DNA from: an uncultured Saprospiraceae bacterium
Lineage (GTDB): Bacteria > Bacteroidota > Bacteroidia > Chitinophagales > Saprospiraceae
Length of the DNA stretch: 64,000 bases
Reading direction: 5' to 3'
NCBI GenBank assembly: GCA_937951615.1
Contig: CALFBH010000014.1
Span: 99,610-163,609, forward strand
Part shown: in pieces, positions 9,901-33,886 of the stretch
How the letters are laid out: every line of letters begins with the position of its first letter
How positions within the stretch are numbered: the stretch's first letter is position 1
Translations under genes and position numbers: made by a program
The notes under the pieces: model-generated
Databases searched by the model: none
The model's input: only the letters and a program-made list of their open reading frames with translations
What the model was told of the DNA's origin: nothing

Positions 9901-10997
9901 TCCATCATGACGGCATAATCCAATGCTTCTGCTATGACATCTATTGTGGTGGTTTGTTGTGCAAATACGCGTAAGGCGGCTATCTGTACATCCCAGGTTA
10001 CGCCTGCTACACCGATACCATTATTGCCTTCTGCTCCAATCGTACCGGCTACATGTGTACCATGTCCACTACTTGACGAACCGGGCAAATCAAAAGGATC
10101 ATTATCATTATTAATAAAATCCCAGCCGATGAAATCATTGAGATAACCATTGCCATCATTATCAATAGTGTCTATATCGCCTGGGTCGAATATCCAGACA
10201 CCGTTGATGTTCTGTTCGAGTACTTGTCCATCACCGTCGGCATCTTCGCCGAGATTCTGCCAGATATTGTTTATTAGGTCGGGGTGTTTCCAGTCTATGC
10301 CAGTATCAATTAGTCCGACTACTATGGAGGAGCTGCCTGTTGCGATGTCCCAGGCTTCTGGAGCGTCTATATCGGCATCAGGAGTTCCAGCGTTACCAGT
10401 GAGCAGGTCGGCTTGTCCAGTGTTGTGTAGGTTCCATTGGTGGGGGTACAGGGCGTCGTTTGGGGTGGTGTTAAGGGCTGTTTGTCCCCATGAAGGTGTT
10501 TCGCAAAGCGAAATACGTCCCCTCTTGAGAGGGGAATGTAGGGGTGTGTCTGCTGGAAAGTTGGGTGGCTTTGCATAGTCAACACACCCCTCTTTTCCCC
10601 TCTCAAGAGGGGATGTAATCTCTGGCGAGATTACCTTAGTGTGATGTGTTGGTTCTTCCAAACAATCCTCCATCGTCAAATAATAGTAGTAATTCGGCTC
10701 GATATACTCAATGTCGGGATGCTTGTGGTATTGGCTGATGATTTGTTGGATGTCTATTTCACCTTTGCTTTGGTCAATCTCCCAGACTTCGATATTGCTG
10801 TTGGGTTTGCTGCGGAGTAGACTGGCGTTCATTTGGTTTTTGAGGGCATTCTTTTGTGTTGTTGTTCTGTTGGTTTTCATTTTTACGAGGACTTGTCCGG
10901 GGGCGTATTTGGCTTGTTCGGTTTGTCCGTAGGTGGAAAGGCTGAATAAACAGCAGAGTGCTAGTGCAAGTGTTTTGAAATAAGTGGTCTGTTTCAT
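6939..10997 (-). CDS. Secreted subtilisin-like serine protease with LRR blocks and C-terminal surface modules
   Basis: 1352 residues. A signal peptide (1-24) is followed by a propeptide-like region (about 28-107, YAPGQVLVKMK ... DIEYIEPNYYY) and an S8 subtilase domain with Asp231 (GLIDTGID), His312 (GHGTHVAG) and Ser476 (GTSMATPHVTG). Two plant-type LRR blocks follow, each introduced by a cap segment (SLALVALYEATDGG, SLALVDLYDSTNGTGW). Then come a calcium-loop segment (DYNYDGTANETDALYW, DGNGDGIVNGADLQ), an SprB-like repeat and the shared C-terminal module (VEFKAGETIILRPGF...FSGEIENC). Residues about 129-170 between propeptide and catalytic domain are encoded by an inserted palindromic repeat. 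The gene is divergent from the family gene at 11252 with 254 bp between starts. Likely a cell-surface or secreted protease. Confidence 0.93.
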   Translation of the reverse strand: MKQTTYFKTLALALCCLFSLSTYGQTEQAKYAPGQVLVKMKTNRTTTQKNALKNQMNASLLRSKPNSNIEVWEIDQSKGEIDIQQIISQYHKHPDIEYIEPNYYYYLTMEDCLEEPTHHTKVISPEITSPLERGKEGCVDYAKPPNFPADTPLHSPLKRGRISLCETPSWGQTALNTTPNDALYPHQWNLHNTGQADLLTGNAGTPDADIDAPEAWDIATGSSSIVVGLIDTGIDWKHPDLINNIWQNLGEDADGDGQVLEQNINGVWIFDPGDIDTIDNDGNGYLNDFIGWDFINNDNDPFDLPGSSSSGHGTHVAGTIGAEGNNGIGVAGVTWDVQIAALRVFAQQTTTIDVIAEALDYAVMMDMPISNNSYAEGEYSNRMIEALDSAEVNGHLFVAAAGNFRNNNDTNPNYPSSYNFDNIISVAATNRNDQLWVQSNLRGSSYGATNVDIAAPGRRIKSTYPQNNYRYNTGTSMATPHVTGACALLWEQYPDKTYGEIKTAVLGSVDVLPDLSGKCVSEGRLNLYGALTYFEEDTVSLSCRERDSLALVALYEATDGGNSWYGSGTSVWDLTQPMNTWSGVTLDGNGCVSSLILFNRGLNGSIPPEIGNLNNLTGLVLAYNQLSGSIPPEIGNLNNLASLSLSNNQLSGSIPPELGNLNYLESLNLSNNQLSGCYNINLNFASGSNSTISDGNNFDASWQDFISNGVGACNPYISCRQSDSLALVDLYDSTNGTGWTNTWDLDQPIDTWYGVTLNQTGCLTHLHLPSNQLNGNIPIEIGNLNDLISLGLYTNQLSGSIPPEIGNLNNLTHLYLNSNQLNGNIPNEIGNLNNLEVLFLSFNQLSGNIPSQIGDLNNLTTLHLYSNTLSGNIPSELGNLNNLRILYLHNNYQLSGSIPPEIGNLSNMLYLQLFNNNLNGCYDNNLLSLCSQIASNSNYYISNGNNFNAPWEDFCNTGAGTCTPVWPSDYNYDGTANETDALYWGLAFGNEGDARPNATTIWEGQQAPEWLTAVEGINGKHQDGNGDGIVNGADLQVLDDNFGNIHAYTQSVYIASSMVYRLEEAELVAGDPSYDLYVTDTNGDSIAAHGLAINIDFGDIPIDSVELRLDSSSLLPSHSLQVMDTINNRLHLALTRTDGDNPFLIGPVANFIVVTRDIPTGDSLKMDIENGTVIQANGDMATIAGMSFYPYDPAGLSNNSLVVSASVIHEQCTMPGSISLSVEGGEPPYSYRWNTGATSSSLSNLTPNIYAVTVTGLDDSTKVLSVEVQGEYISIPDEFGIFPDCINSPCPTLLTPSGTVGAGTYKAGTAVNSDGTVDGAVEFKAGETIILRPGFEVPPGTDFSGEIENCPY
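10518..10613. repeat. Palindromic element inserted in frame in the subtilase gene
   Basis: Arms of 32 bp at 10518-10549 (TCCCCTCTTGAGAGGGGAA then GTAGGGGTGTGT) and 10582-10613 are almost perfectly complementary, separated by 32 bp. Smaller palindromes flank it (TTTCGCAAAGCGAAA at about 10499-10513, GTAATCTC...GAGATTAC after 10613). On the coding strand it reads through without a stop and encodes low-complexity residues such as SPLERGKEG and HSPLKRGRIS. Confidence 0.8.
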
Positions 10998-11027
10998 GGT
11001 TCTGTTTTTTTAATGACTTAATATATA

Positions 11028-11128
11028 CGGCGGGTTGAAACCCGCCGCTTTTGCGAATAATGACGTTTGTTTCGCAAAAGCGTAGGACTTCAGTCCTATG
11101 TATAAAAAACGACGGCTAAAGTCGTCGG
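11028..11128. repeat. Cluster of four GGyTnAArCC-type hairpins
   Basis: In the divergent region between subtilase and family gene A, four hairpins stand in a row: CGGCGGGTTGAAACCCGCCG (11028-11047), a 12-bp stem CGCTTTTGCGAA/TTCGCAAAAGCG (11046-11082), GTAGGACTTCAGTCCTATGT (11083-11102) and CGACGGCTAAAGTCGTCG (11110-11127). Stems differ but the centres keep the pattern GG-pyrimidine-T-n-A-A/C-purine-CC. The first two together equal the palindrome inserted in the coding sequence at 38009-38060. Confidence 0.7.
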
Positions 11129-11143
11129 TACTGTTGACTGGTA

Positions 11144-11151
11144 CAAAAGTA
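11144..11151 (-). promoter_or_regulatory. Candidate -7 element TACTTTTG for the subtilase gene
   Basis: CAAAAGTA on the plus strand is TACTTTTG on the minus strand, a TAnnTTTG match 147 bp before the subtilase start and directly outside the hairpin cluster, which would then be transcribed as leader. No -33 partner at standard spacing. Confidence 0.35.
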
Positions 11152-11251
11152 TGCTGCTTTTTTCATACATTTATATACAATATAGTGATTAAAATACGAG
11201 ATTATAAGTATCGTTTTTTTTGTAAATAATTGGTTATCAGTTTTGAATGAA

Positions 11252-12733
11252 ATGAAAAATAAAAAAAAGAAGCCTCGTCCGTTTTTGTTAATTGACTTGC
11301 TGAATACATTTTCGAAGCGGGAATTGTCTAATTTTTCTGATTTTGCGGGTTGTGCTTATTTCAATACGGATCGTTATGTAGCGGTATTGGCAAAAGTGCT
11401 GATCAAGGAGGTGATTCATAAAAAGGACTTTGATGATGTGGTACAGTGTGAAGTATATCAGGCGGTATTTCCTGAAAAAGCCGAGCCTGAAAAGGTGTTG
11501 AAAGCGCAAGAAAAAGCCTTATTGGTCACAAAGATGAATTTGCTGATGCGAGTGGCGGAAGATTTTTTATGCCATGAAGCCTTAAAGAAAAATGCAGCCT
11601 GCAAAACGGAGTTGTTGTATGGAGAAATCTTAGCGCGTAATCAGTTTCAGTTGTTTAAGCGGCAAGTGACTAAGGATGAAAAAACGCTTGCTGCCCAGCC
11701 GGCGAAGGGGGTGGAGGAATATGCGCATCAGTTTAGGATGGAGTTGGGGCGACTGAATTATTTGCATCGTCGGGGGCAGATTTTGAGGGAAGATAATTTG
11801 CCTGAATTAATTGAACAATTGGACATTTATTATTTGCTCAATAAATTGAACCTACATACGACCTGCCTTGCGTTAAGCCTTGTTGCAGCAAATAAAACCT
11901 ATGATTATACGCCAATGAAAGCGGTCGAGACTTTGATGGATTTGCCACAATATGCCAGCCATCCGCTTATTCGTCTGCATCGTATGGCTATTGTACTGAC
12001 GGAGACTAATGATGTAGATTCTTATCGTCAATTTTTGGACTTATTGGAAGAGTGTCGTGCTTTGGTTTCTAATGAGGATTTAAATAATTTTTATAAAGTT
12101 GCTGTGAATGTTTGTGGGGAAAAAATTATAGGAGGAGATGAGGCATTTTACCAACATGCCTTTGATCTGTATCGAATAATGGATAACAAAGATTTGCTCA
12201 AAGAAGGAAATTTTATGCCTGCGGCAAAACTTAAAAACATCATCACCTTGTGCTGCAAACTGAATGAATTTGATTGGGCAAAGGAAACCATAGAAAAGTA
12301 TCGTCCTGTATTGGAAAAAGACCATGCGGATAGTGTATATCATTTTAATATGGGCGCAGTAGCCTTTTATCAAAATGATTTTAAAACCGCCTTATCTCAT
12401 TTTATACGGGTAGAAAAAGTGAATACGGCTTATGACATCAACTGTCGCATTATGCTCCTGAAATCTCATTATGAATTGGACAAAGAATACGACGAGCGCA
12501 CTATGCGGACTTTCCTGATGGCAGAACGTTTTATCAAAAGCAATAAATCATTGGTTTTAAAAGACAAAAGGGCATACAGAAACTTTATCCGCCTGCTGGT
12601 AAATTTATATCGGGTGCGCCACCGCGCAAGCAGAGTCACCAAAGAACGACTGAAAGAGAAGCTGGATAAGTATGAATTTATTAGCGATAAGCGGTGGTTG
12701 TCAGATAAAATTGAAGAACTGAACTCCGATTAA
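11252..12733 (+). CDS. Divergent paralogous family protein A (helical, solenoid-like, unknown function)
   Basis: 493 residues from ATG 11252; an upstream TTG at 11243 would add three residues. Cytoplasmic: no signal peptide or membrane segment. It is almost wholly helical and rich in Leu, Lys and Glu. The N-terminus has LLNTFSKRELSNFSDFAG followed by YFNTDRYVAVLAKVLI; the middle has LDIYYLLNKLNL and LKNIITLCCKLNEFDWA; the C-terminus has RWLSDKIEEL. The same pattern (FSkxELxxF, yFNtd, LdifYLxkKLNL, FkNIvtxxlxLxxxdWa, C-terminal WLxxKxxxL) is present in the protein at 27827, and an outlying version in 21479 and 32342. The repeated paired helices in the second half resemble TPR-like solenoids. 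It is head-to-head with the subtilase gene. I do not recognise a named family. Confidence 0.85.
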   Translation: MKNKKKKPRPFLLIDLLNTFSKRELSNFSDFAGCAYFNTDRYVAVLAKVLIKEVIHKKDFDDVVQCEVYQAVFPEKAEPEKVLKAQEKALLVTKMNLLMRVAEDFLCHEALKKNAACKTELLYGEILARNQFQLFKRQVTKDEKTLAAQPAKGVEEYAHQFRMELGRLNYLHRRGQILREDNLPELIEQLDIYYLLNKLNLHTTCLALSLVAANKTYDYTPMKAVETLMDLPQYASHPLIRLHRMAIVLTETNDVDSYRQFLDLLEECRALVSNEDLNNFYKVAVNVCGEKIIGGDEAFYQHAFDLYRIMDNKDLLKEGNFMPAAKLKNIITLCCKLNEFDWAKETIEKYRPVLEKDHADSVYHFNMGAVAFYQNDFKTALSHFIRVEKVNTAYDINCRIMLLKSHYELDKEYDERTMRTFLMAERFIKSNKSLVLKDKRAYRNFIRLLVNLYRVRHRASRVTKERLKEKLDKYEFISDKRWLSDKIEELNSD

Positions 12734-12734
12734 A

Positions 12735-12765
12735 TTCCAAAGCAAATCAGGCTTCGAGCCTGACC
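12735..12765 (-). repeat. Inverted copy of the CAGGCT...AGCCTG hairpin repeat
   Basis: Directly behind the stop of family gene A stand ATTCCAAAGCAAATCAGGC and the rest of the hairpin, the reverse complement of the 31-bp repeat at 2201-2232 and 2690-2722. Possible transcription end structure, but without a U tract. Confidence 0.55.
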
Positions 12766-12852
12766 CATCTAAGAAGGAAAATTCAAACTCGAAAACCACA
12801 AGCGGGTGAGGCTTCCTTCAGAATCGAGGCGCGGGTAGGTAAAACTAAAAAA

Positions 12853-12885
12853 CCAAAAAACGCCACCCCTCACGGGATGGCGTTC
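12853..12885 (-). terminator. Rho-independent terminator of the giant PKD gene
   Basis: The hairpin AACGCCA..TGGCGTT (12859-12884) with inner CCC/GGG pairing is followed on the minus strand by TTTTTTGG. It lies 37 bp beyond the minus-strand stop at 12922. Confidence 0.75.
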
Positions 12886-12921
12886 ATATTAAACTAACCT
12901 TTTGAAAACACTTTGAGTAAA

Positions 12922-15900
12922 TTAATTTCCATCACCAATAACAGCACAATCTGAGTTGTCGCAAGTGCCATTGCCATTGGTGTCTTCCTGCTGGTCGCAG
13001 GCACCATTTTGGTTGATGTCCCAGCAAGGAAAAGCGTCGTTGCAATCTTCTATTTCAGCAGAGAAGTTTGTATTTCCACTTGTGCTGAAGCCATTATCTA
13101 AGAGGATAATCTCTCCTGCTTTGAAATTTACACCGCCTTCTTGACCGGTTTCTGATATGACATTACCACGCGCATTGACAGCTTCGGCAGCATGATAAAC
13201 GCCACTTGGAATAGCAACTGGTCCAATCACAATAACTGGTGGACATTCGACATCCAGGATCGCTATTTTTCTACAGTATTCTTTCTGCCAGCAGACGACG
13301 CCAGTTAGTGGGTTTTCTTCTATAACAATCATGCAAACCCAGTAGATACCCGCATTGGCGTAAGTATGAGATACAGAAGCACTGCCTGTGGAGAAATCAT
13401 TTGGCGAACCATCGCCCCAATCCCAGGTGACTCTATGGCAATTGGTCAGTGCATTGGGTGTTGCATTGAGGGTCTTACCACTTAGTGTTGGCGTAAAGCC
13501 TACATCAACCTGATTGCAGAAAAGATCGTAATCTACACAACATTCTACTGGATCACATTGTACCTGAATCGTTGAGCAGTATTCTTTTTCCCAACAAGGG
13601 TTACCAGCCGCATCCAGTTCACGAACGATCATACAAACGGTATATGTACCTGGTCCCGGATAAGTATGTGTCGCACCAGCACTCGGACCTTGCAATGGGC
13701 CAGTGGAGGTTCCATCACCCCAAACCCAAGTGACCCAGTCGCAATCGTTCAGTGCAATAGGAGCTACTGTAATAGCGCAGTTATTCGGTGTACTGATGCC
13801 GAGTAGGAAACCTGCATCTACACGATCGCAGAAAGCTTGATAGCTTGAACAACAACCATCACATTGTACCTCAATAGTTGAACAGTATTCTTTTTCCCAA
13901 CAAACATTTCCATCCGCACCAATTTCCTGAACAATCATACAAACGGTATATACGCCAGGTGCAGCATAAGTGTGAGGAACACCAGTATTCCAACTTCCAG
14001 GAGAGGTTGTACCATCGCCCCAGCTCCAAGTTACTTGATCACACTCGTTTAAGCCATTCGGAGATACGCCGATACTACAGTTATTTGGGTTATTAAAACC
14101 AATAGTATAACCTGCATCCACACGATCACAGAATGCCTGATAATCTGTGCAACATGGCGGTGGAGGACATTCGACGACGACGTCTATACAATGTTCTTTT
14201 TCCCAGCAAACTGTACCGTCTGCACCAACTTCGCGGACAAGCATACATATCGTATAATTGCCTGGAGCGGCATAAGTATGGGTATTACTTGTGTTCCATG
14301 TTCCAGTTGATGAAGTACCATCTCCCCAATCCCAGGCAACTTGGTCGCATTGGCTGAGTGCACTTGGTGATACACCAACAGTACAATTGTTCGGATCATT
14401 GAAAGCTATGATAAAGCCTGTATCCACGCGGTCGCAGAATGCCTGATAGCTAGAACAACAACCATCACATATTACCTCAACTTCAATACAATGTTCTTTT
14501 TCCCAGCAAACTGTACCGTCTGCACCAACTTCCTGAACAATCATACAAACTGTATATACACCAGATGCTGCATAAGTATGTGTGTTGCTGGTGTTCCATG
14601 TTCCGCCCGAAGTTGAGCCATCTCCCCAGTTCCAGATGACGCGATCACATTGGTTTAGTCCAAGTGGAGATACGCCAATGGTACAGGTTGTCGGGTCATT
14701 GAAAGCTATTGCAAAACCTGTATCCACGCGATCGCAGAATGCTTGGTAATTAGAGCAACATCCCGTTGGATCACAATCTGCAATGACGTCATAACAGACC
14801 TCTTTGACCCAGCAAACTTCTCCTGCTGCATTTACTTCTTCTACAATCATACAAACGGTATAAGAACCAGAAGTGTAAACGTGAGAGGTCGAAGCACTCG
14901 TGCCGGGTAGTGGACCAGTTGTTGTTCCATCACCCCAATCCCAAGTCACTCTGTCGCAATCAGTCAGACTATTTATGCCGACATTCATCGTACAATTATT
15001 CGAGGCACTAGGAATGGAGAATAAGAAACCGGGATCTACACGATCACAGAAAGCCTGATAATCTGAACAACAGCCATCGCAGGTAATTGAGAACTGGTCG
15101 CAGAATTGTTTTTCCCAACATATATTGCCATCGGCATCCTGTTCATAAACCGTCATGCAAACCGCATATCCGCCAGAGCCAGAATAGACGTGTGTGAATG
15201 GGCCGCTTACCGCAGAAACAGGGCCAGTTGTCGTACCATCGCCCCAATCCCAAATCACATACTGACAGGAATCCAGTGCATTGGGTAGCACTCTTATCTC
15301 GCAGTCCGTAGGGTTCAGCGTGTAAGTGTATCCTGCATCTACTTGGTCGCAGAATTGGTCATAATCATCACAACAAGGATCACAGGTTGGTATAGGAATG
15401 GTGTCGCAAACCGTTGAGATACAGCAAGAATCCTGTTGGAATGGGAATGGTCCATGATGGAGGACGTAGCCTAATATCAAATCCGGATCGCTAATCGGGA
15501 AGGGTTCTACACAAGTCGTCACTGTTCTTGTCGAATTATACGGCAATGGACTTGCCGACCAGTCAAAGAAACCACCCGTTGGTGTCAAAGTAATACCGGA
15601 GGCTACTGGGTTTTTAACAGTAACCACTAGTGCCGTTGCTGCGGGGGATAGTGATGATTTATTGGTCACGTCAAAGGTGAGCAAATATTTATTGCTATCG
15701 CAAACCAGACTGATGTTTGAAGTAATCAGACAACAAGGCTCTAGGGTTACACAAACGGGGTCGGGCGAATGGCAGCAGAAGTCCTGTCCCCAAATTCCAT
15801 AGTTGAAACATATATTGCTTGGAGAGGTCACAGGAGAGGTGGAGTATATATACACACATATTGGACCTGATGTTCCCATTGGGGGAATGGAAACGGGTAA

Positions 15901-19762: not shown

Positions 19763-19804
19763 AAATTGTGTTATAAATAGTGGATTAAATTATTGTTTAT
19801 TCAA

Positions 19805-21142
19805 TTACAGTCCATTGGGGCAATCTAAGTCGTCACAAAGCCCGTCGCCGTTCAGATCTTCTGAGCTTTCGCATTGTCCATTTTCATTAAAATCCCAACA
19901 TTCAATGCCGCAGCCCTGAATGCCCGCAGCAAAATTGGCTTGTTGGGCTACTCTAAATCCTGCATCTAAAATAATGATTTCTCCTGCTTTGAAAACGACA
20001 TTATTGCCGGGCGGGATAAAACCATCTGAAAAAATTATTTGCCCTGCCTGATAAGTATTGCTTTGAATAGCCGTTGGTCCAATTTCCAAATCTGGCGGAC
20101 AGAACTCGTTTACTTCTACCACGATAGTTCCTACATCACAAGAACCTGAAGTCAGACAAATCTGATAATCATAAACAAATTGACCAGCAACCGGAGAAGT
20201 AAAGCACCAGAATCCAGTACCCGTCGGGTAAAATTGAGGGGGCATACTGTTTGGGTCAGTGAGCAACTCAAAAGAAGATAGGGCAATTTGTGGCAACTGA
20301 TTTTGACATTCCAGCCCTTCCGGGCAAAAAGCTTCAAAAGATTGGGAAACCACATCATTGAGCGTGGGGTCGAAATATATGGTATCGTTTATTGTAGTAA
20401 CATGCTGGTCGAGCACAGGACTTACATTACAATTTTCGACCAGTAAATAAGCTGTTTGTTCATCACAAATCGTGATGTCTCTCATACCGTCATTGATTGA
20501 ATAGAACACTTCATAAGTGACACTATCGACACCCGTAAATCCAGGGTCGGGGAAGTATATAAGGTCACCAGTTGCCTGATCAACATCTATTGTTCCGTTT
20601 GAAGCTTGTTCTGTGATATCGGAAATTGAGAGTTGCCCGATAGAAAAAGTTGGGAAATCCACCATTAAGTTCTCCTGGTCATTTTCCAACACATCTAAAA
20701 ATAAAGGCTGACCATTAGCCGGAAGGCAACAGAACTTATCCGGCGGTGTTTCGCAGACAAACTCAAGGTGTATCATATAGGTGACGGTATCGCAAACGAC
20801 AACGCCATTATTATCATCACAACATTCAAGTACTGTAAAACTATCTTCAGGGAAACAGGTGGAGTTCGGTTCGTAGAAAAAGATACTATCAATATTATTG
20901 TCGGGCGTTAAAAAACCTGAGATTGTCAATGTACCAAAAAGTGGTTCTTGTAAAATAGTATAACTGCACGCGCTTGTACTTGCCGACCGATTTACTTCCG
21001 TGTCCGTAGGTGCAGTAAATCCGCCGCCGCCGCTACCAGGACAAGCCGGGAAAATAACGTCGTCACACCTGAGTGACTGTCCTGTCAAAGAGAGCTGCAT
21101 CATTAGTGCAAACAATAGCGTTGTACAAATAATTTTATTCAT
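19805..21142 (-). CDS. Secreted all-beta protein with shared C-terminal module and Ca-loop tail
   Basis: 445 residues. A signal peptide (1-21) is followed by two or three Ig/cadherin-like beta domains rich in Cys (DSFTVLECCDD, DKFCCLPANGQPLFLDVLEND, FTGVDSVTYEVFYS, ITICDEQTAYLLVENC). The 'LDVLENDQ' and 'FTGVDSVTYEV' phrases resemble tandem Ig-like (cadherin-like/BIg) repeats. Residues about 360-415 form the module shared with neighbours (VVFKAGEIIILDAGF...FAAGIQGC), and the tail CWDFNENGQCESSEDLNGDG resembles that of the giant protein. It is paralogous over its N-terminal half to the protein at 29653. Head-to-head with family gene B. Function unknown, probably a surface protein. Confidence 0.85.
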   Translation of the reverse strand: MNKIICTTLLFALMMQLSLTGQSLRCDDVIFPACPGSGGGGFTAPTDTEVNRSASTSACSYTILQEPLFGTLTISGFLTPDNNIDSIFFYEPNSTCFPEDSFTVLECCDDNNGVVVCDTVTYMIHLEFVCETPPDKFCCLPANGQPLFLDVLENDQENLMVDFPTFSIGQLSISDITEQASNGTIDVDQATGDLIYFPDPGFTGVDSVTYEVFYSINDGMRDITICDEQTAYLLVENCNVSPVLDQHVTTINDTIYFDPTLNDVVSQSFEAFCPEGLECQNQLPQIALSSFELLTDPNSMPPQFYPTGTGFWCFTSPVAGQFVYDYQICLTSGSCDVGTIVVEVNEFCPPDLEIGPTAIQSNTYQAGQIIFSDGFIPPGNNVVFKAGEIIILDAGFRVAQQANFAAGIQGCGIECWDFNENGQCESSEDLNGDGLCDDLDCPNGL

Positions 21143-21478: not shown

Positions 21479-23008
21479 ATGAAAAAAATAATAGAAAAAA
21501 AAACGTCAAATTCACTTTTCATTCTATTGGATTCGATAGATGAAAATGAGTTTTATCGCTTGAAAAGATATATTTATGCTGATTTTTTCAATACGAATCA
21601 GCGACTTCGAGAGATATTCGGTGCTATCTGGGCAGCAAAAACCGGAAATATCAGTTATCAGGATATGGATATAAAGGCTTTGTATCAGGCAGTTTGTCCA
21701 AATCGTAGCCTAAGAATGATGAATAATGATTATTCTGATTTATTGAAGCTGGTACACCGCTTTATTGCACAAGAGGAATATCAAAATGACGGGCTGGCAG
21801 AAACCCGCTACCTGCTTAAAGGTTTGGAAAACCGGAAAGTTTTTAAAAAATTTAAACGGCTCATCAATCGTGAGTCGAAGGGTTATGAGCATGGAGATGT
21901 AAAACGTACAGAGTATCAGGAAATATATCTACAGGATTTGTTGATTGCCGAGCAAAAGTATAAACACTATAACATCCACGAAAATCGCAAGGCTTCTACC
22001 AATCGGATGTTGCAGGAGTTTGTGGATAGCATAGATCGTTTTCACGCACTTATAAAAATAAGATTTCTGGGCGTGATGAAACGAAGGAATATATTGCTTG
22101 GGCATCAGTTTAAATACAGAAGCATAACGGCCGTGAAAGAGATTGTAAAAGATATGTCGCCAGATAGTTTTCCACTGTTGTCGATATATTATAATATGTA
22201 TTTACTTTGGGAAAAAGAGTCACTTGAACAGTTTGACATCTGTGAAGGCATTTTGTCTAAGCATAAAGAACGTTTTTCTCTGTACGAGCAGAAACAGCTT
22301 TTCCAGATTTTGATCAATTATTGCCGCTTCAATGTATTGGGCGAGCAGCCTCGCTTGTGGAAAAGTCGCCAACTGGTTCTGTATCGGGCATTTTTTGAAC
22401 GCGGATTTTGTTACACCGGTAAGTCACAGCGCAAAAAACAAATCTCGCTGCATCACTATAAAAACTATATGCAATTGCTCATTGAACTGAACGAATTTGA
22501 GCAGTTTGAAAACCTGCAAAAACAATACGCGCCACAGGTGTTTTTCAAAAATGCGGAGCAACAAGGCTTTGTAGAACAGTATAATACGACGGCACTTTAT
22601 TTTGCTCGGTATTTATTTTATACCAAAGAAAAACGGGTCATCGGACAGGAATTTGCCTATGAAAATGCCTTGAAATATATTCAGAATATGGAAAGCCAAC
22701 TTGCCACAGGAAAGCAGGAATATCCTGACCTATTTTACAAAATTTTGTACGAAGTTTTATTATTGAAAATCTATTTTGCCCAGCCCAAAGGCTTTTCTAC
22801 GCATCGAAATGCTTTTTATAAATACGTGAGCAATCAAACCCGAATCAGCCCAGTTTATCGACAGGCTTATCTGAATTTTGCCACCGCTATTTTGAAATTA
22901 TATCGCTCGAAACATCAAGGAGTCGTTTATGTGAAAGGGGAGATTGATGGGCTGAAAATTATTGAACGGGAATGGCTGGTGAATTGGGTGATTGAGTTGA
23001 TTGAGTAA
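21479..23008 (+). CDS. Divergent paralogous family protein B (unknown function)
   Basis: 509 residues, soluble, basic and helical. The N-terminus has LDSIDENEFYRLKRYIYADF followed by FNTNQRLREIFGAIW; the middle has RFIAQEEYQNDG, YLLKGLENRK and EYQEIYLQDLLIAEQKY; later come QISLHHYKNYMQLLIELNEF, TTALYFARYLFYTKEKR and the C-terminal KIIEREWL. It is clearly paralogous to the protein at 32342 (long identical stretches, e.g. RFSLYEQKQLFQILIN) and more distantly to A and C, with which it shares the FN-motif near residue 40 and a C-terminal WL motif. It lies head-to-head with the secreted gene at 19805. No catalytic motif or DNA-binding helix-turn-helix was recognised. Confidence 0.85.
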   Translation: MKKIIEKKTSNSLFILLDSIDENEFYRLKRYIYADFFNTNQRLREIFGAIWAAKTGNISYQDMDIKALYQAVCPNRSLRMMNNDYSDLLKLVHRFIAQEEYQNDGLAETRYLLKGLENRKVFKKFKRLINRESKGYEHGDVKRTEYQEIYLQDLLIAEQKYKHYNIHENRKASTNRMLQEFVDSIDRFHALIKIRFLGVMKRRNILLGHQFKYRSITAVKEIVKDMSPDSFPLLSIYYNMYLLWEKESLEQFDICEGILSKHKERFSLYEQKQLFQILINYCRFNVLGEQPRLWKSRQLVLYRAFFERGFCYTGKSQRKKQISLHHYKNYMQLLIELNEFEQFENLQKQYAPQVFFKNAEQQGFVEQYNTTALYFARYLFYTKEKRVIGQEFAYENALKYIQNMESQLATGKQEYPDLFYKILYEVLLLKIYFAQPKGFSTHRNAFYKYVSNQTRISPVYRQAYLNFATAILKLYRSKHQGVVYVKGEIDGLKIIEREWLVNWVIELIE

Positions 23009-24395: not shown

Positions 24396-24457
24396 GATAT
24401 TAATTTTTAATTGTTAAAAATAATTTGATTTATCTTATTAGTTATCAGTTTGGTTAT

Positions 24458-24512
24458 GGGCATAGCCAGCCCATATAGTCTTTTTATAAACTATGCCGAG
24501 GTTCGAAAATAT
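24458..24512 (-). promoter_or_regulatory. Conserved leader hairpin L2, upstream of the S74-chaperone gene
   Basis: Minus-strand sense: GGCATAGTT...GGCTATGCC encloses TATAAAAAGACTATATGGGCT. Seven Watson-Crick pairs plus two G-U pairs replace the nine Watson-Crick pairs of L3, which keeps pairing in minus-strand RNA but not in plus-strand RNA. Similarity to L3 extends through GAGGTT.GAAAATATGA. It lies 63 bp before the start codon. Confidence 0.65.
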
Positions 24513-24610
24513 GAACAAAGGATAGCGAAGTCACGCAGGACTTCAGTCTTCAGGTAAAATACGGTGTAGAATACACCTCACAGGCTTCGATTTTCTATAC
24601 CAATCATGCA

Positions 24611-26158: not shown

Positions 26159-26657
26159 TTTAACATGATTTAAAATAGTGAATAAATAAATTTTCAAAAA
26201 AGGCATAGCAGTACCATTTAGCCTTTTGAACTGCTTCATTTGAGGGGGATTTATTGGTTTAAATAAATACTTCACAATGCTTGTTTTTAGTTCGAGACAG
26301 GCATAGTCAGCCCATATAGTCTTTTTACAGACTATGCCGAGGTTGAGAAATATGAGTTGAAAATGGGGTGAAGCGATTATTTCTTTCTGGGGTGCGGGGT
26401 TATGGATTGGCTAAATTACTTCGTCATTCGACATTCATCCGTTCGTTATTCAAAACAACCCACTTTAATCTTTTTTAGTTAAAAAATAAATTTTAAGTAC
26501 TGCCTACTCTATACACTTTTCGGCTTCCGTATTGTTGTAATTAGCTTCGAAGCTGTCATCTAAATGACACTACAAAGATGTAGGCATTTCACATATCAAC
26601 AAATTACCGTTTGGAGGCAAAATCCAAAAAAATCTGTACCTGTGTTGATACAAAGAA
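26159..26657. other. Gap upstream of 24611-26158: hairpin L3 and dispersed repeat, no gene
   Basis: Apart from L3 (26300-26355) the stretch holds one copy of the dispersed motif ACTTCGTCATTCGAC...GTTCGTTATTC (about 26408-26450), which also occurs near 23075, 29555, 34710 and 52180. No gene or clear promoter was seen. Confidence 0.5.
26300..26355 (-). promoter_or_regulatory. Conserved leader hairpin L3, upstream of 24611-26158
   Basis: Minus-strand sense: a perfect 9-bp outer stem GGCATAGTC/GACTATGCC encloses TGTAAAAAGACTATATGGGCT. The inner ATAGTC/GACTAT stem uses the same 5' arm, so the two hairpins are mutually exclusive, as in switching leaders. It lies 142 bp before the start codon. Confidence 0.65.
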
Positions 26658-26690
26658 AAAGCCCGTCCATTTTCATGAACAGGCTTTAAA
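26651..26690 (-). terminator. Rho-independent terminator of the FN3-like lipoprotein gene
   Basis: AAAGCCcGTcCAT...ATGaACaGGCTTT (26658-26687) with minus-strand TTTTTCTTTG downstream, 22 bp beyond the stop of the gene ending at 26713. Confidence 0.7.
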
Positions 26691-26712
26691 AAAATTTATG
26701 ATGGCTACAGGG

Positions 26713-27693
26713 CTAACAAGGATTGTCGGATATGAATACAGACTTGTCTTTAGTATTCAGGCACTCGACAAACTCCTCTGCTCCACAGGAATTTTCTAGA
26801 CAATCACCACAAAAGTCTATTATTGTATAATAGTACCATTTTTCACGATTGAACTCAATGAAATCACCGCAAATTACTCCTGATTCGCCGAATTTTATAT
26901 AACAATTAGTACTGCATAGGGAATTAAAATCAGGTCCTCCTTGTGGCGGCCAATACACAACCGCTACTGCTGCAGCACCACCTCTATATGTAAAAGTATC
27001 CACAATCTCGTCAGATTCGGTACCACTTGTACAAATAGTTTGTACTGTCGCTTCTACCACATCATCAACCTCTAATAAGACCGGTGATGTAAAGTTTGCG
27101 CTAGGGTTTTGCAGGTTTTGCACGAATTGCGTGTCTACTGCGCCTCCATTTATGTATAGTATAAACTCGTATCCCAGTACATTTATGGCAGGAGGCGTCC
27201 ATTCATAGGTAAGTGATGTAAAATTCACCGTGCTAATATCAGTAAGTCCCAATTCTGTAGGTGCCGGACATGCTGCCACAAAACTATCTGTAATCGGTTC
27301 TGATTCAGTATTATCTATACAAATAGTTTTTACTTCTGCTGTTACCGTACTGCCATCCTGTATAAGTGGACTCATTTCAACGTTTACTACAGGATTTACC
27401 GTGAATTGCGTGTCTACCGTGACTCCATTTATGTATAGTATAAACTGGTATCCCTCTGCTATGATAGAAGGCATCCATCCATAGGTGAGCGTCGCAGATG
27501 AGACTTCAATAAAACTAGTATTATTAAAGGTGTCAAGTTCCAATTCTGTACCAATATCAGTAAGTCCCAATTCTGTAGGTGCCAGACAATTGTCTGGTTC
27601 TTCATCATCGCAGCCAGCAAAAAAGATGGTGCTACAGATGACAACTAGCATTATCATGTGTATAATTGAGAATAATGTTCTGTTTTTTTTCAT
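26713..27693 (-). CDS. Lipoprotein with two tandem FN3-like domains
   Basis: 326 residues. The N-terminus carries a lipoprotein signal (IFFAGC, lipidated Cys about residue 28) followed by an acidic DDEEPDNC stretch. Two similar beta domains follow (about 37-140 and 143-245), each starting APTELGLTDI and containing TYGW/TYEW, GYxFILYINGxxVDTQF and TICxxxTES, which resemble fibronectin type III repeats and duplicated within the gene. The last 80 residues are Cys-rich. It is head-to-head with family gene C (133 bp between starts). Probably anchored in the outer or inner membrane; function unknown. Confidence 0.85.
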   Translation of the reverse strand: MKKNRTLFSIIHMIMLVVICSTIFFAGCDDEEPDNCLAPTELGLTDIGTELELDTFNNTSFIEVSSATLTYGWMPSIIAEGYQFILYINGVTVDTQFTVNPVVNVEMSPLIQDGSTVTAEVKTICIDNTESEPITDSFVAACPAPTELGLTDISTVNFTSLTYEWTPPAINVLGYEFILYINGGAVDTQFVQNLQNPSANFTSPVLLEVDDVVEATVQTICTSGTESDEIVDTFTYRGGAAAVAVVYWPPQGGPDFNSLCSTNCYIKFGESGVICGDFIEFNREKWYYYTIIDFCGDCLENSCGAEEFVECLNTKDKSVFISDNPC

Positions 27694-27752
27694 AACTTTA
27701 ATGTTTTGAATTTGTTAGTTAATTTAATGTATAGCAGTTCTCGTTAATTCAA

Positions 27753-27760
27753 CAAAGTTA
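27753..27760 (-). promoter_or_regulatory. Candidate -7 element TAACTTTG for the FN3-like lipoprotein gene
   Basis: CAAAGTTA on the plus strand is a TAnnTTTG match 60 bp before the start. No -33 partner at the usual spacing. Confidence 0.35.
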
Positions 27761-27826
27761 TTATTTAAGATAGAGATATGTAATTACCTTTTTAGGCTAA
27801 AATCCAAAAAACCAAAAACGGACGAA

Positions 27827-29254
27827 TTGAAAGACTCAAAACTCATTAATGTTATTCAGCATTTTTCTAAGCCGGAATTAAAAAGGCTTAGAAATTTTGT
27901 ACACTCGCCTTATTTCAATACAGATAAAAAAGTACGGTTGCTCTTTGATTTTATTTACCAATATGCTCCTGATTTTAACCATGAAAAATTTATAGCTCAA
28001 TATGCAGCCCTTTTTGTAACTCCAAATGAAAAATATGAGGAAGCAACTTTAATAAAGTTACAGTCGCGCCTTTTTAAAGTGATAGAATTGTTCATCCATT
28101 ACGATATCGAAATGCAGCATCTGCCGGGTATAGAATTATCACTTATGCGGTTTTACAACCGAAAAAACCTAACTACTCCATTTAAAAATGCCCATAAAAA
28201 AGTTCAAAAAAAACAGGATGAGCAATTACACCGAAATGGAGACTATTACCATAATCAATTTACCATAGAGCAAGAGTATGATTCATTTCTGACAGTTAAA
28301 GTTGAAAATAGCACCGGAAAAATGAATCATCAGCGGGCTATGGAGAAGCTGGATATATTTTATCTGGCGAAAAAGCTGAATCTGCTCTGTCAAATGCATA
28401 ATCGCCAAATACTTGTTAATGTAAATTATGATATGACATTAATGGACGAAATATTAAGTCTTTTGTCAAATAGTGATTATACCCAAATTCCTGTTATTGC
28501 CTTGTGGCATCAAGCCTTACTACTCTTGCTAAATCCCGGAGATTCAACTTATTTTTATGGTTTAAAAAAACTGCTTTTAGAACATAGAAACCGACTATAT
28601 AAGTTTGAACAAAGAATGTTATACACCTATTTGGAAAATACCTCTAAACAGATTTTTGAAGACAGCCATCAATATCATCAGGAGTTATTTAAATTGTATG
28701 ATACTCAGTTAAAAAATGAATTATTATATATGGAAGGCTTTCTATTGCCAGCTATTTTTAAAAATATTGTTACCGTAGCACTTAATCTTAATCATTTGGA
28801 CTGGACAGCAAATTTTCTGCATAAGAATCAACATAAAATTATACCAGAGTACGAAGACAGCGAAGATGTATATACATATTGCCTCGCAGGGCTGTACTTC
28901 GAGCAAAAAAAATTTGACGAGGTATTAGACTTGCTCAACCAGGTCGTTTTTAATGATATTTATACAAAAATGGATATTCGCAGAATGTACATGAAAGTGT
29001 ATTACGAAAAAACTATCAATAGCCCGTTTGAAGATATGGTGAACAGCTTCCGAAAGTTTCTCAACAAAAATCAGGACAGCATTCCTCCCGCTTACATACA
29101 GGAAAATCGTGATTTTGTCAATATCATCAACAAAATCTACAACACCCTCAAAAAAGACCAGCAAAAATTAGACGCCATCGAACAGCAAATTAGCGAAATC
29201 CAAACATTGCCCGAAAGAGCCTGGCTCCTGGAAAAATTAAACGCTTTGAGGTAA
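27827..29254 (+). CDS. Divergent paralogous family protein C (unknown function)
   Basis: 475 residues starting at TTG 27827; no in-frame ATG precedes the conserved N-terminal motif, so a TTG start, or an even earlier non-ATG start, is needed. The N-terminus has INVIQHFSKPELKRLRNFV then SPYFNTDKKVRLLFDFIY; further on come QSRLFKVIELFIHYDI, KLDIFYLAKKLNLL, FKNIVTVALNLNHLDWTAN and YTYCLAGLYFEQKKFDEVLD; the end is ERAWLLEKLNAL. The layout and motifs are those of protein A. Helical and soluble, with TPR-like helix pairs in the second half. Head-to-head with the FN3-like lipoprotein. Its stop codon lies inside the first codons of a fragment of another family member. Confidence 0.83.
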   Translation: MKDSKLINVIQHFSKPELKRLRNFVHSPYFNTDKKVRLLFDFIYQYAPDFNHEKFIAQYAALFVTPNEKYEEATLIKLQSRLFKVIELFIHYDIEMQHLPGIELSLMRFYNRKNLTTPFKNAHKKVQKKQDEQLHRNGDYYHNQFTIEQEYDSFLTVKVENSTGKMNHQRAMEKLDIFYLAKKLNLLCQMHNRQILVNVNYDMTLMDEILSLLSNSDYTQIPVIALWHQALLLLLNPGDSTYFYGLKKLLLEHRNRLYKFEQRMLYTYLENTSKQIFEDSHQYHQELFKLYDTQLKNELLYMEGFLLPAIFKNIVTVALNLNHLDWTANFLHKNQHKIIPEYEDSEDVYTYCLAGLYFEQKKFDEVLDLLNQVVFNDIYTKMDIRRMYMKVYYEKTINSPFEDMVNSFRKFLNKNQDSIPPAYIQENRDFVNIINKIYNTLKKDQQKLDAIEQQISEIQTLPERAWLLEKLNALR

Positions 29255-29517
29255 TATACGAGGTATTATTATTGAAAATTTATTTTGAAGCGACCATAGG
29301 TTTTAAAAGGCGAAGAAGAGCTTTTCATAAATACGTCAATAACCAGACAAGAACCAGTCCCGTCTATCGGCAGGCTTATCTGAATTTTGCTACCGCTATT
29401 TTGAAATTATATCGTTCAAAACATCAGGGTGTGGCTTATGTAAAGGGCGATATTGATGGGCTGAAAATCATTGAACGGGAATGGCTGCTGGCGCAGGTGG
29501 GGGAGTTGAGTGATTGA
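29251..29517 (+). pseudogene. 3' fragment of a family B-type gene
   Basis: From 29251 the plus strand encodes VIYEVLLLKIYFEATIGF, continuing through SPVYRQAYLNFATAILKLYR to KIIEREWLLAQVGELSD. This matches the last ~88 residues of protein B (22745-23008) at about 80 percent identity; the final 12 codons are instead nearly identical to the end of gene D. The homology begins exactly where gene C ends. No start codon of its own fits the family. Read as the remnant of a B-like gene whose 5' part was replaced by gene C. Confidence 0.85.
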
Positions 29518-29589
29518 GTTGCGGGTTGATGGGTTGCGAGTTGTGGGGTATCAAATTACTTCGTCATTTGATATTCTGCGGTTCGATAT

Positions 29590-29622
29590 TCGAAAAAATG
29601 CCGCCTCTTGCGAGGCGACACC
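29590..29622 (-). terminator. Rho-independent terminator of the 29653-31509 gene
   Basis: GCCTCttgcGAGGC (29603-29615) is flanked on the minus strand by a downstream GGCATTTTTTCG. It lies 30 bp past the stop. Confidence 0.7.
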
Positions 29623-29652
29623 GATTTCAAGCAATCTACCATTATCGTATGC

Positions 29653-31509
29653 TTACATACACATTCCTGCTCCGCTACTACAAAAACTTTCCCAGTCAGC
29701 ATCAAAACTATTGCCATTACTAATGGATGAATTGGTATTTGATGCAGGGTTCAGTTGGCTGCAAAGTGTTAATAGACTAGCATTATAACAAGCACTTAAT
29801 TGATTATTATACAATCGTAGATATTCGAGATCAGCCAGATTGGCCAAGGCGGCAGGAATAGTACCGTTGAGTTGATTATCATATAATAATAGATTGATCA
29901 GCTTGCTCAAATTACCTAACTGAACAGGAATATTACCTGTTAGCTGATTATTGCTCAGGCGCATATATCGAAGTTCTGCCAGATTGCCCAAGGCCGCAGG
30001 AATATTTCCCGTGAGTTGATTGTCATTAAGTGCCATGACGCGGAGTAGCGGCAATGCGCCCAATTCTAGCGGAATACTGTCTTGCAATTGATTATTGTTC
30101 AGGTATAAAAACTGAAGTTGTGTCAGATTGCCTAATTCTGGCGGGATAGTACCGTCCAGATTATTATAGGACAAATCCAATTGACTTATGCAGTCATTCT
30201 CATTCAAAGTTACACCATACCAAGTGTCTATTGGCGTCGCTAAGTCCCAGGTATTATTCCAGTCCAATCCATTTGTTGAAAAATAGAGTGCTTCCAGCGC
30301 AGCGCGGTCAGTTATTGTACAATCACAGTCTTCTATATTGGCGGAGAAGTCGATACCGGATTGGAATCCACTATCTAGGAAAATTTGTGTGCCAGCTTTG
30401 AAATCGACTGGTACGTCATCTATTATTCCGGCTGAAAGAATCAGGAAATCTGCAAAATATGTTCCGCTGCTGATACTGCCAGAAATGTTTAAATTGGAAT
30501 CACAGGTTTCGGCTACATGTATGATGATACTATCCGTATTGCAAATACTGTCGGTGGTACATATTTCATAATTATAGGAAAAGTCTCCTCCATTTGTGGA
30601 AGCAAAGCACCAGATTTCTCCAAGCGGGCCATTAATGATTTCAATATCTCCCGTATCCTGCAAGACGAGTGAAGAGGCATTGAGCTGTGGAAGTGGATTC
30701 TGACAGTCCAGCGAATCGGGATACAAAAGACTCAGCGTTGGCATGATAAGATCATTGTCAAGTGGGTTGAAGTATATCGTATCTCCTGCAAGAAGGCTAA
30801 ATTCATCTGGACTGGTATCGAGACAATCTTCTATCAGAAAATAAGCCGTCTGTTCATCACAAATCGTGATGGTGTCGTTCATTGGGCTGATGAGTTCATA
30901 AAAAACATCATAACTCAAGCTATCTATTCCCATAAAACCCGGCTGTCCTAGCGTATATTCTATGCTGAAAGACTGTATAATACTTGCACTACCAAATAGG
31001 GGCGGGGAGGTGATATTTTGTATTTCAAGACTTTGCAGCGTATGGTTCGGATAGTTTTGCAGAATGAAATCCTGGTCGTTTGACAGCACATTCCATATCA
31101 TCGGATTTTGATTATTGGGTACACAGCAGAACAGGTCGGACGGGGTTTCACAGTCTGTAGAGATGTGCACAATATATTCAATCGTATCGCAAACAGGACC
31201 CGTAATCAGGATACAACATTCGATAACCGTAAATGTATCTTCTGTTGCGCAGGTCGTATTGGTATCGTATTGATAGAGGTCATCCACATTGCCGTCTAGT
31301 CCAACGCAACTTACTGTCCCATAAGCAGGCTGTTGTAGAATCTGGTCGCAATAACAATCAACTTGACTGCTTTTCTCTGTTGGTTTCCAAAGACTAATTG
31401 ATTCTTGGTCGGGACATAAGGGATAGATGAGGTCTCGGCAGCGGGTTTCGCCAGCAAAGGCTGTTTTGGTAATTAGCAAAATGGTAATGGTTAAGATTGT
31501 TTTGTTCAT
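29653..31509 (-). CDS. Secreted all-beta plus LRR protein, probably C-terminally truncated
   Basis: 618 residues from ATG 31509 (MNKTILTITILLITKTAFAG, signal peptide); an upstream frame would start inside a hairpin. The N-terminal ~340 residues parallel the protein at 19805 (DTFTVIECC, DLFCCVPNNQ, FMGIDSLSYDVFYE, ITICDEQTAYFLIEDC). The shared module comes next (VDFKAGTQIFLDSGF...FSANIEDC), then an LRR cap (ALEALYFSTNGLDWNNTWDL) and about six plant-type LRRs (GTIPPELGNLTQLQFLYLNN). It ends abruptly at SFCSSGAGMCM, the point where the peroxidase and subtilase continue into Ca-loop and SprB-like domains. It follows the small gene 31605-32141 on the same strand, 95 bp apart. Likely a surface protein. 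Confidence 0.85.
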   Translation of the reverse strand: MNKTILTITILLITKTAFAGETRCRDLIYPLCPDQESISLWKPTEKSSQVDCYCDQILQQPAYGTVSCVGLDGNVDDLYQYDTNTTCATEDTFTVIECCILITGPVCDTIEYIVHISTDCETPSDLFCCVPNNQNPMIWNVLSNDQDFILQNYPNHTLQSLEIQNITSPPLFGSASIIQSFSIEYTLGQPGFMGIDSLSYDVFYELISPMNDTITICDEQTAYFLIEDCLDTSPDEFSLLAGDTIYFNPLDNDLIMPTLSLLYPDSLDCQNPLPQLNASSLVLQDTGDIEIINGPLGEIWCFASTNGGDFSYNYEICTTDSICNTDSIIIHVAETCDSNLNISGSISSGTYFADFLILSAGIIDDVPVDFKAGTQIFLDSGFQSGIDFSANIEDCDCTITDRAALEALYFSTNGLDWNNTWDLATPIDTWYGVTLNENDCISQLDLSYNNLDGTIPPELGNLTQLQFLYLNNNQLQDSIPLELGALPLLRVMALNDNQLTGNIPAALGNLAELRYMRLSNNQLTGNIPVQLGNLSKLINLLLYDNQLNGTIPAALANLADLEYLRLYNNQLSACYNASLLTLCSQLNPASNTNSSISNGNSFDADWESFCSSGAGMCM

Positions 31510-31537
31510 TTTGGTCAATTCAATGGTTTGGAAATGG

Positions 31538-31587
31538 CAACTACCTGGAATGGTCACCTAAATATCAGGCTTTTTTCCAGATAGTTG
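31538..31587 (-). promoter_or_regulatory. Leader hairpin before the 29653-31509 gene
   Basis: Minus-strand sense: CAACTATCTGG and CCAGGTAGTTG pair over 11 bp with one U-G pair (50 bases overall). Inside, TCTGG can instead pair with CCTGA across AAAAAAG. This is the same two-competing-stems layout as L2 and L3 with unrelated sequence, 29 bp before the start codon. Confidence 0.55.
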
Positions 31588-31604
31588 TTGCGATGATTTT
31601 TTGT

Positions 31605-32141
31605 TTATTTACAGTTTTCACCTATACATATACAGTTCATTTTTTTCTCACAAGTACCCGTGTCTGCACAATGATAATCTTGGTAATCGACTCCAGTTTC
31701 AGGTATGTCCCAGCCTAATCCCTCGTAGATAAGTTCCATTGCCAAATCGAATTCTTTCTTTGAAAGATTATCCTTTAGCATACCATATTTAAAAGTAATT
31801 AATCCCTTATCTCCGAATCTCATAGCCTGAACAAATTGGAACCGGACGACACCTTTCATTCTTTTTGATAAGAATTGATTTTTTTCGATGTATCTTCTCA
31901 TGTCTTGTTTACTTCTCACAATATTTATATTCTTATTGTGAAAAAGCTGCTGATATTCCTGATAAGAAGTCGCAATTTGATAAGGTTCGCTAATTGGGTT
32001 CACACCCGGCTGCGATATCCCAGGTTGAGAAATGCCCGGATTAAATGGAGTAATATCCTGTGCGGATAAAGGATTCATGAGCATGATACTAAGTGCTGTT
32101 AGCAGACTTAAATAAATCAGCTTTACTTGTAATGTCTTCAT
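31605..32141 (-). CDS. Small secreted protein of unknown function
   Basis: 178 residues with a signal peptide (about 1-27, MNPLSAQ). A Pro/Gly-rich segment (PGISQPGISQPGVNPIS) is followed by a helical central region (SYQEYQQLFHNKNINIVRSK, KKEFDLAMELIYEGLGWDI) and a Cys-rich tail (CADTGTCEKKMNCICIGENC). Not recognised. It is the first gene of a probable minus-strand pair with 29653-31509 and is head-to-head with family gene D (200 bp between starts). Confidence 0.8.
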   Translation of the reverse strand: MKTLQVKLIYLSLLTALSIMLMNPLSAQDITPFNPGISQPGISQPGVNPISEPYQIATSYQEYQQLFHNKNINIVRSKQDMRRYIEKNQFLSKRMKGVVRFQFVQAMRFGDKGLITFKYGMLKDNLSKKEFDLAMELIYEGLGWDIPETGVDYQDYHCADTGTCEKKMNCICIGENCK

Positions 32142-32213
32142 TTTAAATTGTTTTAAAAGTTGTTTAAAAATTTAAGATTAAAATTTACTTGTCGTTTAAT
32201 CTTTTTGACAATA

Positions 32214-32221
32214 CAAAAGTA
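32214..32221 (-). promoter_or_regulatory. Candidate -7 element TACTTTTG for the 31605-32141 gene
   Basis: CAAAAGTA on the plus strand, 73 bp before the start. The leader it would produce contains TTGTC..GACAA and AAGATTAAA..TTTAATCTT arms that overlap, again around an AAAAAGA loop. Confidence 0.35.
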
Positions 32222-32272
32222 CTGGCATTATTCAAGTGAAACATATATTACGACAACTACTCACTTGTTGAG

Positions 32273-32303
32273 TTGTAAGTTAAAGTATTATTTTTTATAT
32301 TTG
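32273..32303 (+). promoter_or_regulatory. Candidate promoter of family gene D (TTG-N20-TATATTTG)
   Basis: TTG at 32273-32275 and TATATTTG at 32296-32303 match the Bacteroidota -33/-7 pattern with 20-bp spacing, 38 bp before ATG 32342. It lies 50-80 bp from the opposing minus-strand element, so the two promoters of the pair are back to back. Confidence 0.5.
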
Positions 32304-32341
32304 TATAATTTTTAAAAGCAGGAATTTAGAAGTTAATTAAA

Positions 32342-33886
32342 ATGATAAAAAAGAATAATTATCGCTTGTTCTCATTTTTAGATGCTGTAGAAGAGGACGA
32401 ATTATACCGTTTGAAACGCTATATTCACGCTGATTTTTTTAATAAAAATGAACGATTCAGACAGTTGTTTGATGCGATATGGGAAGCAAAAACTGGCAAG
32501 ACCAGCTTTCAGGAAATCGACCCTGTAATATTGCATCAGGAGGTTTTTTCCAAAAAGGAAGCATCGGCAATAAGCGATGATTATTCTGGGATTCTAAAAT
32601 TAGTTCGCCGATTTATTGCGCAGGAAGAATACGAAAATGATAAGCAGGCACAAAAGCGTTATCTGCTTCGCGGACTAGAAAGTAGAAAAGCGCATCATAA
32701 GTTTAAATTACTGGTCAATAGGGAAGCAAAAAATTACGAAAATGGTGGTTCGCCAAATCGTAATGAATATCAGGAAAACTATTTTCACGACTTATTGGTT
32801 GCCGAGCAAAAATATAATTATTTCAATATCCATGAAAACAGAAGACCTGCCAACAGCCATTTGCTTCAGGAATTTATTGATACGCTTGATCGTTTTCATG
32901 CACTGACCAAAATCATTTATCTTGGTGTGATGAAACGCAGGTCAAAGGTCACAGGCGACCAGTTTCGATATGGAAATATTATTGGTGTCAATAAAGTCGT
33001 CGAAAATACGCCGCTTGCCAGTTTTCCCTTATTACATATCCATCATCACATCAACAAATTATGGGAAAACGAGTCACTCGAACAGTTTGACATCTGCAAA
33101 AATATGCTGCTCAAATATGGACAGCGATTTTCATTATACGAACAAAAACAACTGTTCCAAATACTCATTAATTTTTGCCGACTCAAGGTCAATGAGCAGC
33201 AGCCTCGCATGTGGAATTTACGGCAGTTGGATTTGTACCACGAGTTTTTTGCAAGAGCATTTTGTTATACTGGAAAGCAGCAGCGTAAGAAACAGATTTC
33301 TCTGCATCACTTCAAAAACTATATGCAGTTGCTCATAGAATTAGAGCTTTTTGACCAATTTGAGGCTTTGCAAAAGCAATACGCGGCACAGGTTTATTTT
33401 AAAAACCAGGCGCGAAAACGCTTTGTTCATCAATATAATACCACGGCGCTATATTTTTCCCAGTATTTATATTATACCAAAAATAAACGGACCATCGGAC
33501 AGGAGTTTGCCTACAGTACAGCCTTAGAATTGATTCAAAGTATGGAGCAGGAGTTGATCATTGGCAAGCAGGATTATCCCGATGTATTTTACAGAATACT
33601 CTATGAAGTACTCCGACTGAAAATTTATTATACGTCGATTAAAGAATTTCCCAAACAAAGAAGTGCTTTTTACAAATACGTCAATAGTCAAAAACAAATC
33701 AGCCCTTTTTTTCTTGAGCCTTATCTCAATTTTGCCAAAGTAACGCTTCGCTTATATCAGTTCAGAAAAACACCAAAAGGTGATGCTGAAAACCTGCAAA
33801 GATTAAAAAATAAACTTGCCAGCATGAAAATTATTGAACGAGAATGGCTGCTGGCGCAGGTGGGGGAGTTGCGGGGGGAAGTTTAA
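32342..33886 (+). CDS. Divergent paralogous family protein D (unknown function)
   Basis: 514 residues, the closest relative of protein B: both have LYRLKRYI(H/Y)ADFFN, RFIAQEEY, ESLEQFDIC, RFSLYEQKQLFQILIN, CYTGK.QRKKQISLHH and KIIEREWL. It is slightly longer near the C-terminus (RKTPKGDAENLQRLKNKL), and the end EREWLLAQVGEL equals that of the fragment at 29251-29517. Soluble, helical, basic, without signal peptide. Head-to-head with the small secreted gene 31605, behind which lies the B-partner paralogue 29653. A TTG-N20-TATATTTG promoter is readable upstream. Function unknown. Confidence 0.85.
   Translation: MIKKNNYRLFSFLDAVEEDELYRLKRYIHADFFNKNERFRQLFDAIWEAKTGKTSFQEIDPVILHQEVFSKKEASAISDDYSGILKLVRRFIAQEEYENDKQAQKRYLLRGLESRKAHHKFKLLVNREAKNYENGGSPNRNEYQENYFHDLLVAEQKYNYFNIHENRRPANSHLLQEFIDTLDRFHALTKIIYLGVMKRRSKVTGDQFRYGNIIGVNKVVENTPLASFPLLHIHHHINKLWENESLEQFDICKNMLLKYGQRFSLYEQKQLFQILINFCRLKVNEQQPRMWNLRQLDLYHEFFARAFCYTGKQQRKKQISLHHFKNYMQLLIELELFDQFEALQKQYAAQVYFKNQARKRFVHQYNTTALYFSQYLYYTKNKRTIGQEFAYSTALELIQSMEQELIIGKQDYPDVFYRILYEVLRLKIYYTSIKEFPKQRSAFYKYVNSQKQISPFFLEPYLNFAKVTLRLYQFRKTPKGDAENLQRLKNKLASMKIIEREWLLAQVGELRGEV

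Follow-up and report, generated by a model that had tools for sequence, protein, structure and literature searches.

The subject of this analysis is a 64,000-nucleotide stretch of contig C14 (CALFBH010000014.1, positions 99,610 to 163,609 of the forward strand; hereafter the window) from the 6.96 Mb genome of an uncultured Saprospiraceae bacterium (GCA_937951615.1), in which four genes of one protein family each start back to back with a gene for a predicted secreted protein. Family member A (11252..12733, plus strand, 493 amino acids (aa)) faces a minus-strand gene at 6939..10997, member B (21479..23008, plus, 509 aa) one at 19805..21142, member C (27827..29254, plus, 475 aa, with a TTG start) one at 26713..27693 and member D (32342..33886, plus, 514 aa) one at 31605..32141; the gaps are 254, 336, 133 and 200 bp, respectively, and the facing genes are referred to below as partners. 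A preliminary description of the window had proposed four paralogous proteins of about 500 residues starting at 11252, 21479, 27827 and 32342, each 130-340 bp from a minus-strand gene with a signal peptide. The coordinates are confirmed, B, C and D can be aligned with A over their full length at 20-24% identity, as befits distant paralogues, the gaps span 133 to 336 bp, and a crude in-house rule predicts a signal peptide in all four facing proteins. The motifs singled out at the time, FN near residue 40 and a C-terminal WL, are likewise borne out by 29 paralogues of this genome, in which N38 is kept in at least 90% and W482 and L483 are invariant.

The partner of A is a predicted secreted protein with a subtilase domain, leucine-rich repeats, an SprB repeat and a GCX_COOH domain, and carries, at 7830..8105 on the minus strand, a dockerin-like domain found by alignment and domain search. 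The partners of B (predicted secreted; Big_9 and GCX_COOH), C (a predicted lipoprotein) and D (predicted secreted, 178 aa) are without it, those of C and D having no known domain at all. The only other carrier in the window lies one gene behind the partner of A (2789-6367, minus strand), a haem peroxidase of the animal type, predicted to be secreted, that has leucine-rich repeats and, at 3695-3967, the dockerin-like domain. The island had also been described as holding no other plus-strand gene. This stands insofar as the remaining plus-strand open reading frames (ORFs) of at least 100 aa are nested in large minus-strand genes or in family gene D, but it missed a remnant of a further family copy (29248..29511, plus strand, about 88 C-terminal residues), which abuts member C, is 30% identical to the end of C and by eye is closest to the end of B. 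We regard the remnant as a sign of recombination in the island.

The observation proves larger than first stated, with 35 family matches in this genome, counting the remnant and one broken copy on contig C79, and 51, the highest count, in the distant Bacteroidota genome G309. The family occurs in 39 of the 40 genomes searched as relatives (the source genome counted), with 1 to 40 matches each, and in only 12 of 296 sampled Bacteroidota genomes at E 1e-10, namely the source genome, five others of its taxonomic family and six distant genomes; it is absent from ten listed genomes of another family (f17) of the same order. As the preliminary description had it, no known domain is recognised in A-D: there is no Pfam match above cut-off and none in NCBIfam or PADLOC, and the database searches matched the family proteins to no housekeeping family. 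The titles and abstract openings of the literature searched, a scope that most subscription papers fall outside, yielded nothing on it. It is a previously unnamed protein family of some Bacteroidota genomes, reaching about 50 copies per genome.

Central to our argument is the head-to-head geometry, which was counted over 28 stretches from this genome and 79 from 24 other genomes, with genes called by an in-house script and the other genes of the same stretches serving as controls. In the other genomes, part of the listed family matches was sampled, none of them from G002, G003 or G004. The 122 members were reduced to 118 (four had an incomplete start or were short) and then to 113, five having nothing upstream within their contig. 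Divergence of the upstream gene is seen for 101/113 family genes as against 180/524 controls (Fisher p 2e-28), both in this genome (29/32) and elsewhere (72/81), with a median gap of 263 bp. The upstream gene is both divergent and predicted to carry a signal peptide for 90/113 family genes as against 79/524 controls (Fisher p 2e-40), which puts a predicted signal peptide on 90 of the 101 divergent partners. The signal-peptide rule, which was revised once since its first version missed clear cases, is lenient (345 of 738 non-family genes pass) and was applied identically to family and controls in its second version. Because relatedness inflates the Fisher p values, the counts were repeated after thinning, and the upstream gene remains divergent for 53/59 members at 45% identity and 21/25 at 35%. 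The preference for divergent secreted neighbours, whose absence elsewhere would have told against the preliminary description, extends from related genomes to distant members of the phylum. In G309, 30 of whose 51 matches fall in the stretches analysed, 25 of those 30 face a divergent gene upstream as against 12/85 controls, and in G144, G140, G132, G281 and G218 the same is seen in five of five cases. Of 19 stretches that surround family members, mostly in few-copy genomes, 8 have a secreted facing protein of about 740-960 aa.

These counts bear on a first alternative, namely that both genes are duplicated together and that their association is inherited without any functional dependence. The spread of copy number from 1 to 51, the remnant in the window and the broken copy on C79 speak for it. 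However, the pairing persists in genomes with few copies, survives thinning to 35% identity and is retained in G309 with different partner proteins, and we consider passive inheritance improbable.

Some loci depart from the usual arrangement. At L208, L209, L211, L216, L218 and L219 of G309, the family gene is separated from the secreted gene by small genes of 67-110 aa, and those at L216 (3174-3383 and 8307-8510) are alike by eye. Directly behind the outlying members at L052, L053, L054, L055 and L056 stands a convergent gene whose small product (108-130 aa) is predicted to be secreted, and four of these members have an upstream gap of 0.8-1.6 kb.

What the partners are was approached through their domains and C-terminal tails. 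The tail scan covered 28 of the 29 partners of this genome, one at 1259 bp being omitted, and 55 of 71 in other genomes, those cut by the end of a stretch or contig being left aside. A type IX sorting tail is found in 36 of the 55 complete partners of related genomes as against 11 of 45 control secreted genes (p 4e-5; 47 were listed, of which two were partners, and some of the 45 are membrane proteins). Among hand-picked partners, nine of nine from mostly few-copy stretches match a type IX sorting domain, one of them just below the Pfam cut-off, as do 17 of 20 large facing genes of distant genomes. Only 4 of the 28 partners of this genome carry such a tail, and 10 of the 28 carry GCX_COOH (NF045639), which sits at the C-terminal end wherever positions are shown and may be another sorting tail. 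The same 28 include proteins with leucine-rich repeats (11), SprB repeats (10), subtilase (7) and thermolysin-type (5) domains. At least two of them, an aldehyde dehydrogenase and a Cas6-type protein lying 798 and 942 bp away, are not surface proteins.

The single block common to alignments of otherwise unlike partners is the dockerin-like domain of about 88 residues, which occurs in 60 of the 101 divergent partners. Among the 637 remaining non-family genes of those stretches 9 have it, and by position seven of these nine directly follow a partner or a doubtful ORF that was counted as a partner. A search of the whole genome found 20 such domains, 15 of them in divergent partners and two in a gene behind a partner, while the remaining three have no family gene within the flanks retrieved. 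The domain is present in 35 of the 40 genomes searched as relatives and was met only in genomes of the same order as the source. G021 has neither family nor domain; in G010, G026, G028 and G036 the family is matched but the domain is not, and in G031 two domains accompany a family match that is only weak. Ten genomes hold exactly one family and one domain match, and in nine of them (G008, G011, G014, G016, G017, G029, G039, G103 and G201) the two genes are neighbours; in the tenth, G023, the sole family match is fragmentary and lies on a different contig. Moreover, family and domain distances are correlated over 60 pairs (Mantel r 0.59; 0.40 and 0.41 in two subsets), a value reached by none of 500 permutations in each case.

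Such an association invites a second alternative, in which the family protein is a cytosolic escort that keeps the facing cargo fit for export before it reaches the inner membrane, perhaps by way of the dockerin-like domain. The enrichment of the domain in facing genes, the neighbouring single copies and the correlated distances speak for an escort, and solenoids, to which the family proteins are predicted to belong (see below), often bind proteins. Against this, an escort does not need divergent geometry, yet 101 of 113 genes have it. Also, 41 of the 101 partners, including three of the four in the window, are without the domain, and duplication as a unit would likewise be expected to yield the Mantel correlation, which thus counts for passive inheritance as well. 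Further, the distant genomes G309, G144, G140, G132, G281 and G218, in which the domain was not found at E 1e-4, keep the pairing nonetheless, and the constant is therefore a family gene divergent from a predicted secreted gene. Compared with local regulation, an escort accounts better for the shared domain and less well for the geometry, and we consider it possible, though on the unlikely side.

Additional evidence comes from the intergenic DNA. Short words of the palindrome TTGATWATCAA are enriched in 88 intergenic regions, together with words resembling the Bacteroidota -7 box. The palindrome is a feature of a clade of 47 members, A among them. A matrix trained on 34 leaders from other genomes scores at least 8 bits in 7 of the 13 leaders of this genome, a level attained by 11 of 220 non-coding and 3 of 64 AT-matched controls and expected in 0.3 from shuffles. 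Within the 300 bp before clade genes, 18 of 25 matches at 9 bits sit 20-51 bp before the start, and no enrichment is seen at the start of the partner (3/39). The palindrome-like site before A, a candidate operator at 11229..11241, scores 10.9 bits and lies 23 bp before the start. The genome holds 106 exact sites (YTGATNATCAR), three of which lie 19-31 bp before family genes, against 4 for the pattern read backwards, a poor control as it includes rare words. Since the carriers are paralogues, shared descent may contribute.

The structure model predicted for A is an all-helical solenoid, in agreement with the helical solenoid-like body proposed earlier, and a structure search with it places the body closest to the Rap/NprR regulators, Rap structures ranking first in the VIA-align list. 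The N-terminal domain has no convincing structural match and no helix-turn-helix (HTH) match, and the family proteins have no signal peptide. Rap proteins act on response regulators, and a third alternative is that what the family protein binds is not DNA but a response regulator or some other signalling protein of the cytosol, through which it sets the surface protein. In keeping with it, besides the Rap ranking, a gene with the N-terminal signature of a response regulator lies near the pair in 7 of the 19 few-copy loci listed. However, over all 145 loci only 7 show a gene of this kind nearby, so that it is not general, and the loci that do may only share gene order; we regard this alternative as improbable. 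The seven are L089, L090, L228, L229, L230, L231 and L241, and most have a kinase-like gene alongside. Elsewhere in the window, two adjacent minus-strand genes at 44329-46616 resemble an ATPase pair, one of them beginning with an ATP-loop (Walker A) motif.

Taken together, the reading we tentatively favour, at slightly less than an even chance, is that each family member serves its facing gene as a dedicated local regulator. It is preferred because the geometry is kept while the partner changes, the palindrome is suited to self-control and the body is predicted to be Rap/NprR-like. The family protein would remain in the cytosol, its N-terminal part contacting the intergenic DNA or the transcription machinery; it would repress its own gene through the palindrome, and would set the expression of the facing gene according to something bound by the solenoid. 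Duplication of such head-to-head pairs in their entirety would then provide a cell with many separately controlled surface proteins. The step from self-control at the palindrome to control of the neighbour is one that we infer. The suggestion in the preliminary description that the four proteins control, or help to export or assemble, the surface proteins beside them is supported in part: control fits the geometry and the palindrome in the leader of one clade, a helping role in export or assembly would agree with the link to a single secreted domain, and the data do not separate the two.

Sensing of unexported cargo would account for both the shared domain and the geometry. The solenoid, in the cytosol, would bind the dockerin-like domain of its own type IX cargo awaiting export and the N-terminal domain, a novel one, would feed export status back to the shared promoter region, so that dozens of surface proteins would each be controlled by their own secretion; we hold this reading to be unlikely. 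The titles and abstract openings searched show no controller of type IX secretion that is dedicated to a single cargo, and the passages available from the review PMC10202324 name no gene-specific regulator of cargo and do not contain the words chaperone, divergent or dockerin. If local regulation holds, each of many large surface proteins would have a private controller, and an unnamed family reaching about 50 copies per genome would have a role, one that the one-to-one pairs of few-copy genomes make directly testable.

It is useful to place these loci beside known systems. Compared with the RRNPP regulators (Rap, NprR and relatives) of Bacillota, the family, searched for and found here in Bacteroidota, has a body predicted to resemble theirs most closely and gives no sequence match. 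Its N-terminal domain has no HTH match, and its neighbour is as a rule a protein predicted to be secreted, in many cases a large one, in place of the short pheromone gene of RRNPP regulators. The partners resemble type IX cargo with a type A sorting domain in related and distant genomes, where the tail is common, and differ from it in this genome, where most lack the tail and GCX_COOH is commoner. As for Dockerin type I, Dockerin_1 (PF00404) matches the partner domain with an E value of at most 0.01 in 55 of 66 copies, and two calcium-loop motifs are visible in the alignment; the partner domain differs in its longer inter-loop stretch, which has an invariant R and conserved W residues, and in its place, in these loci, mostly beside genes of this family. 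Cohesin gave one weak match (E 0.0051) among nine partners scanned. Finally, LysR-type and similar one-component regulators are divergently transcribed, and while A-D contain none of their DNA-binding domains by Pfam and NCBIfam, the starts back to back across a few hundred bases and the palindrome in the leader of one clade are alike, and by analogy of geometry the neighbour may here, too, be the target.
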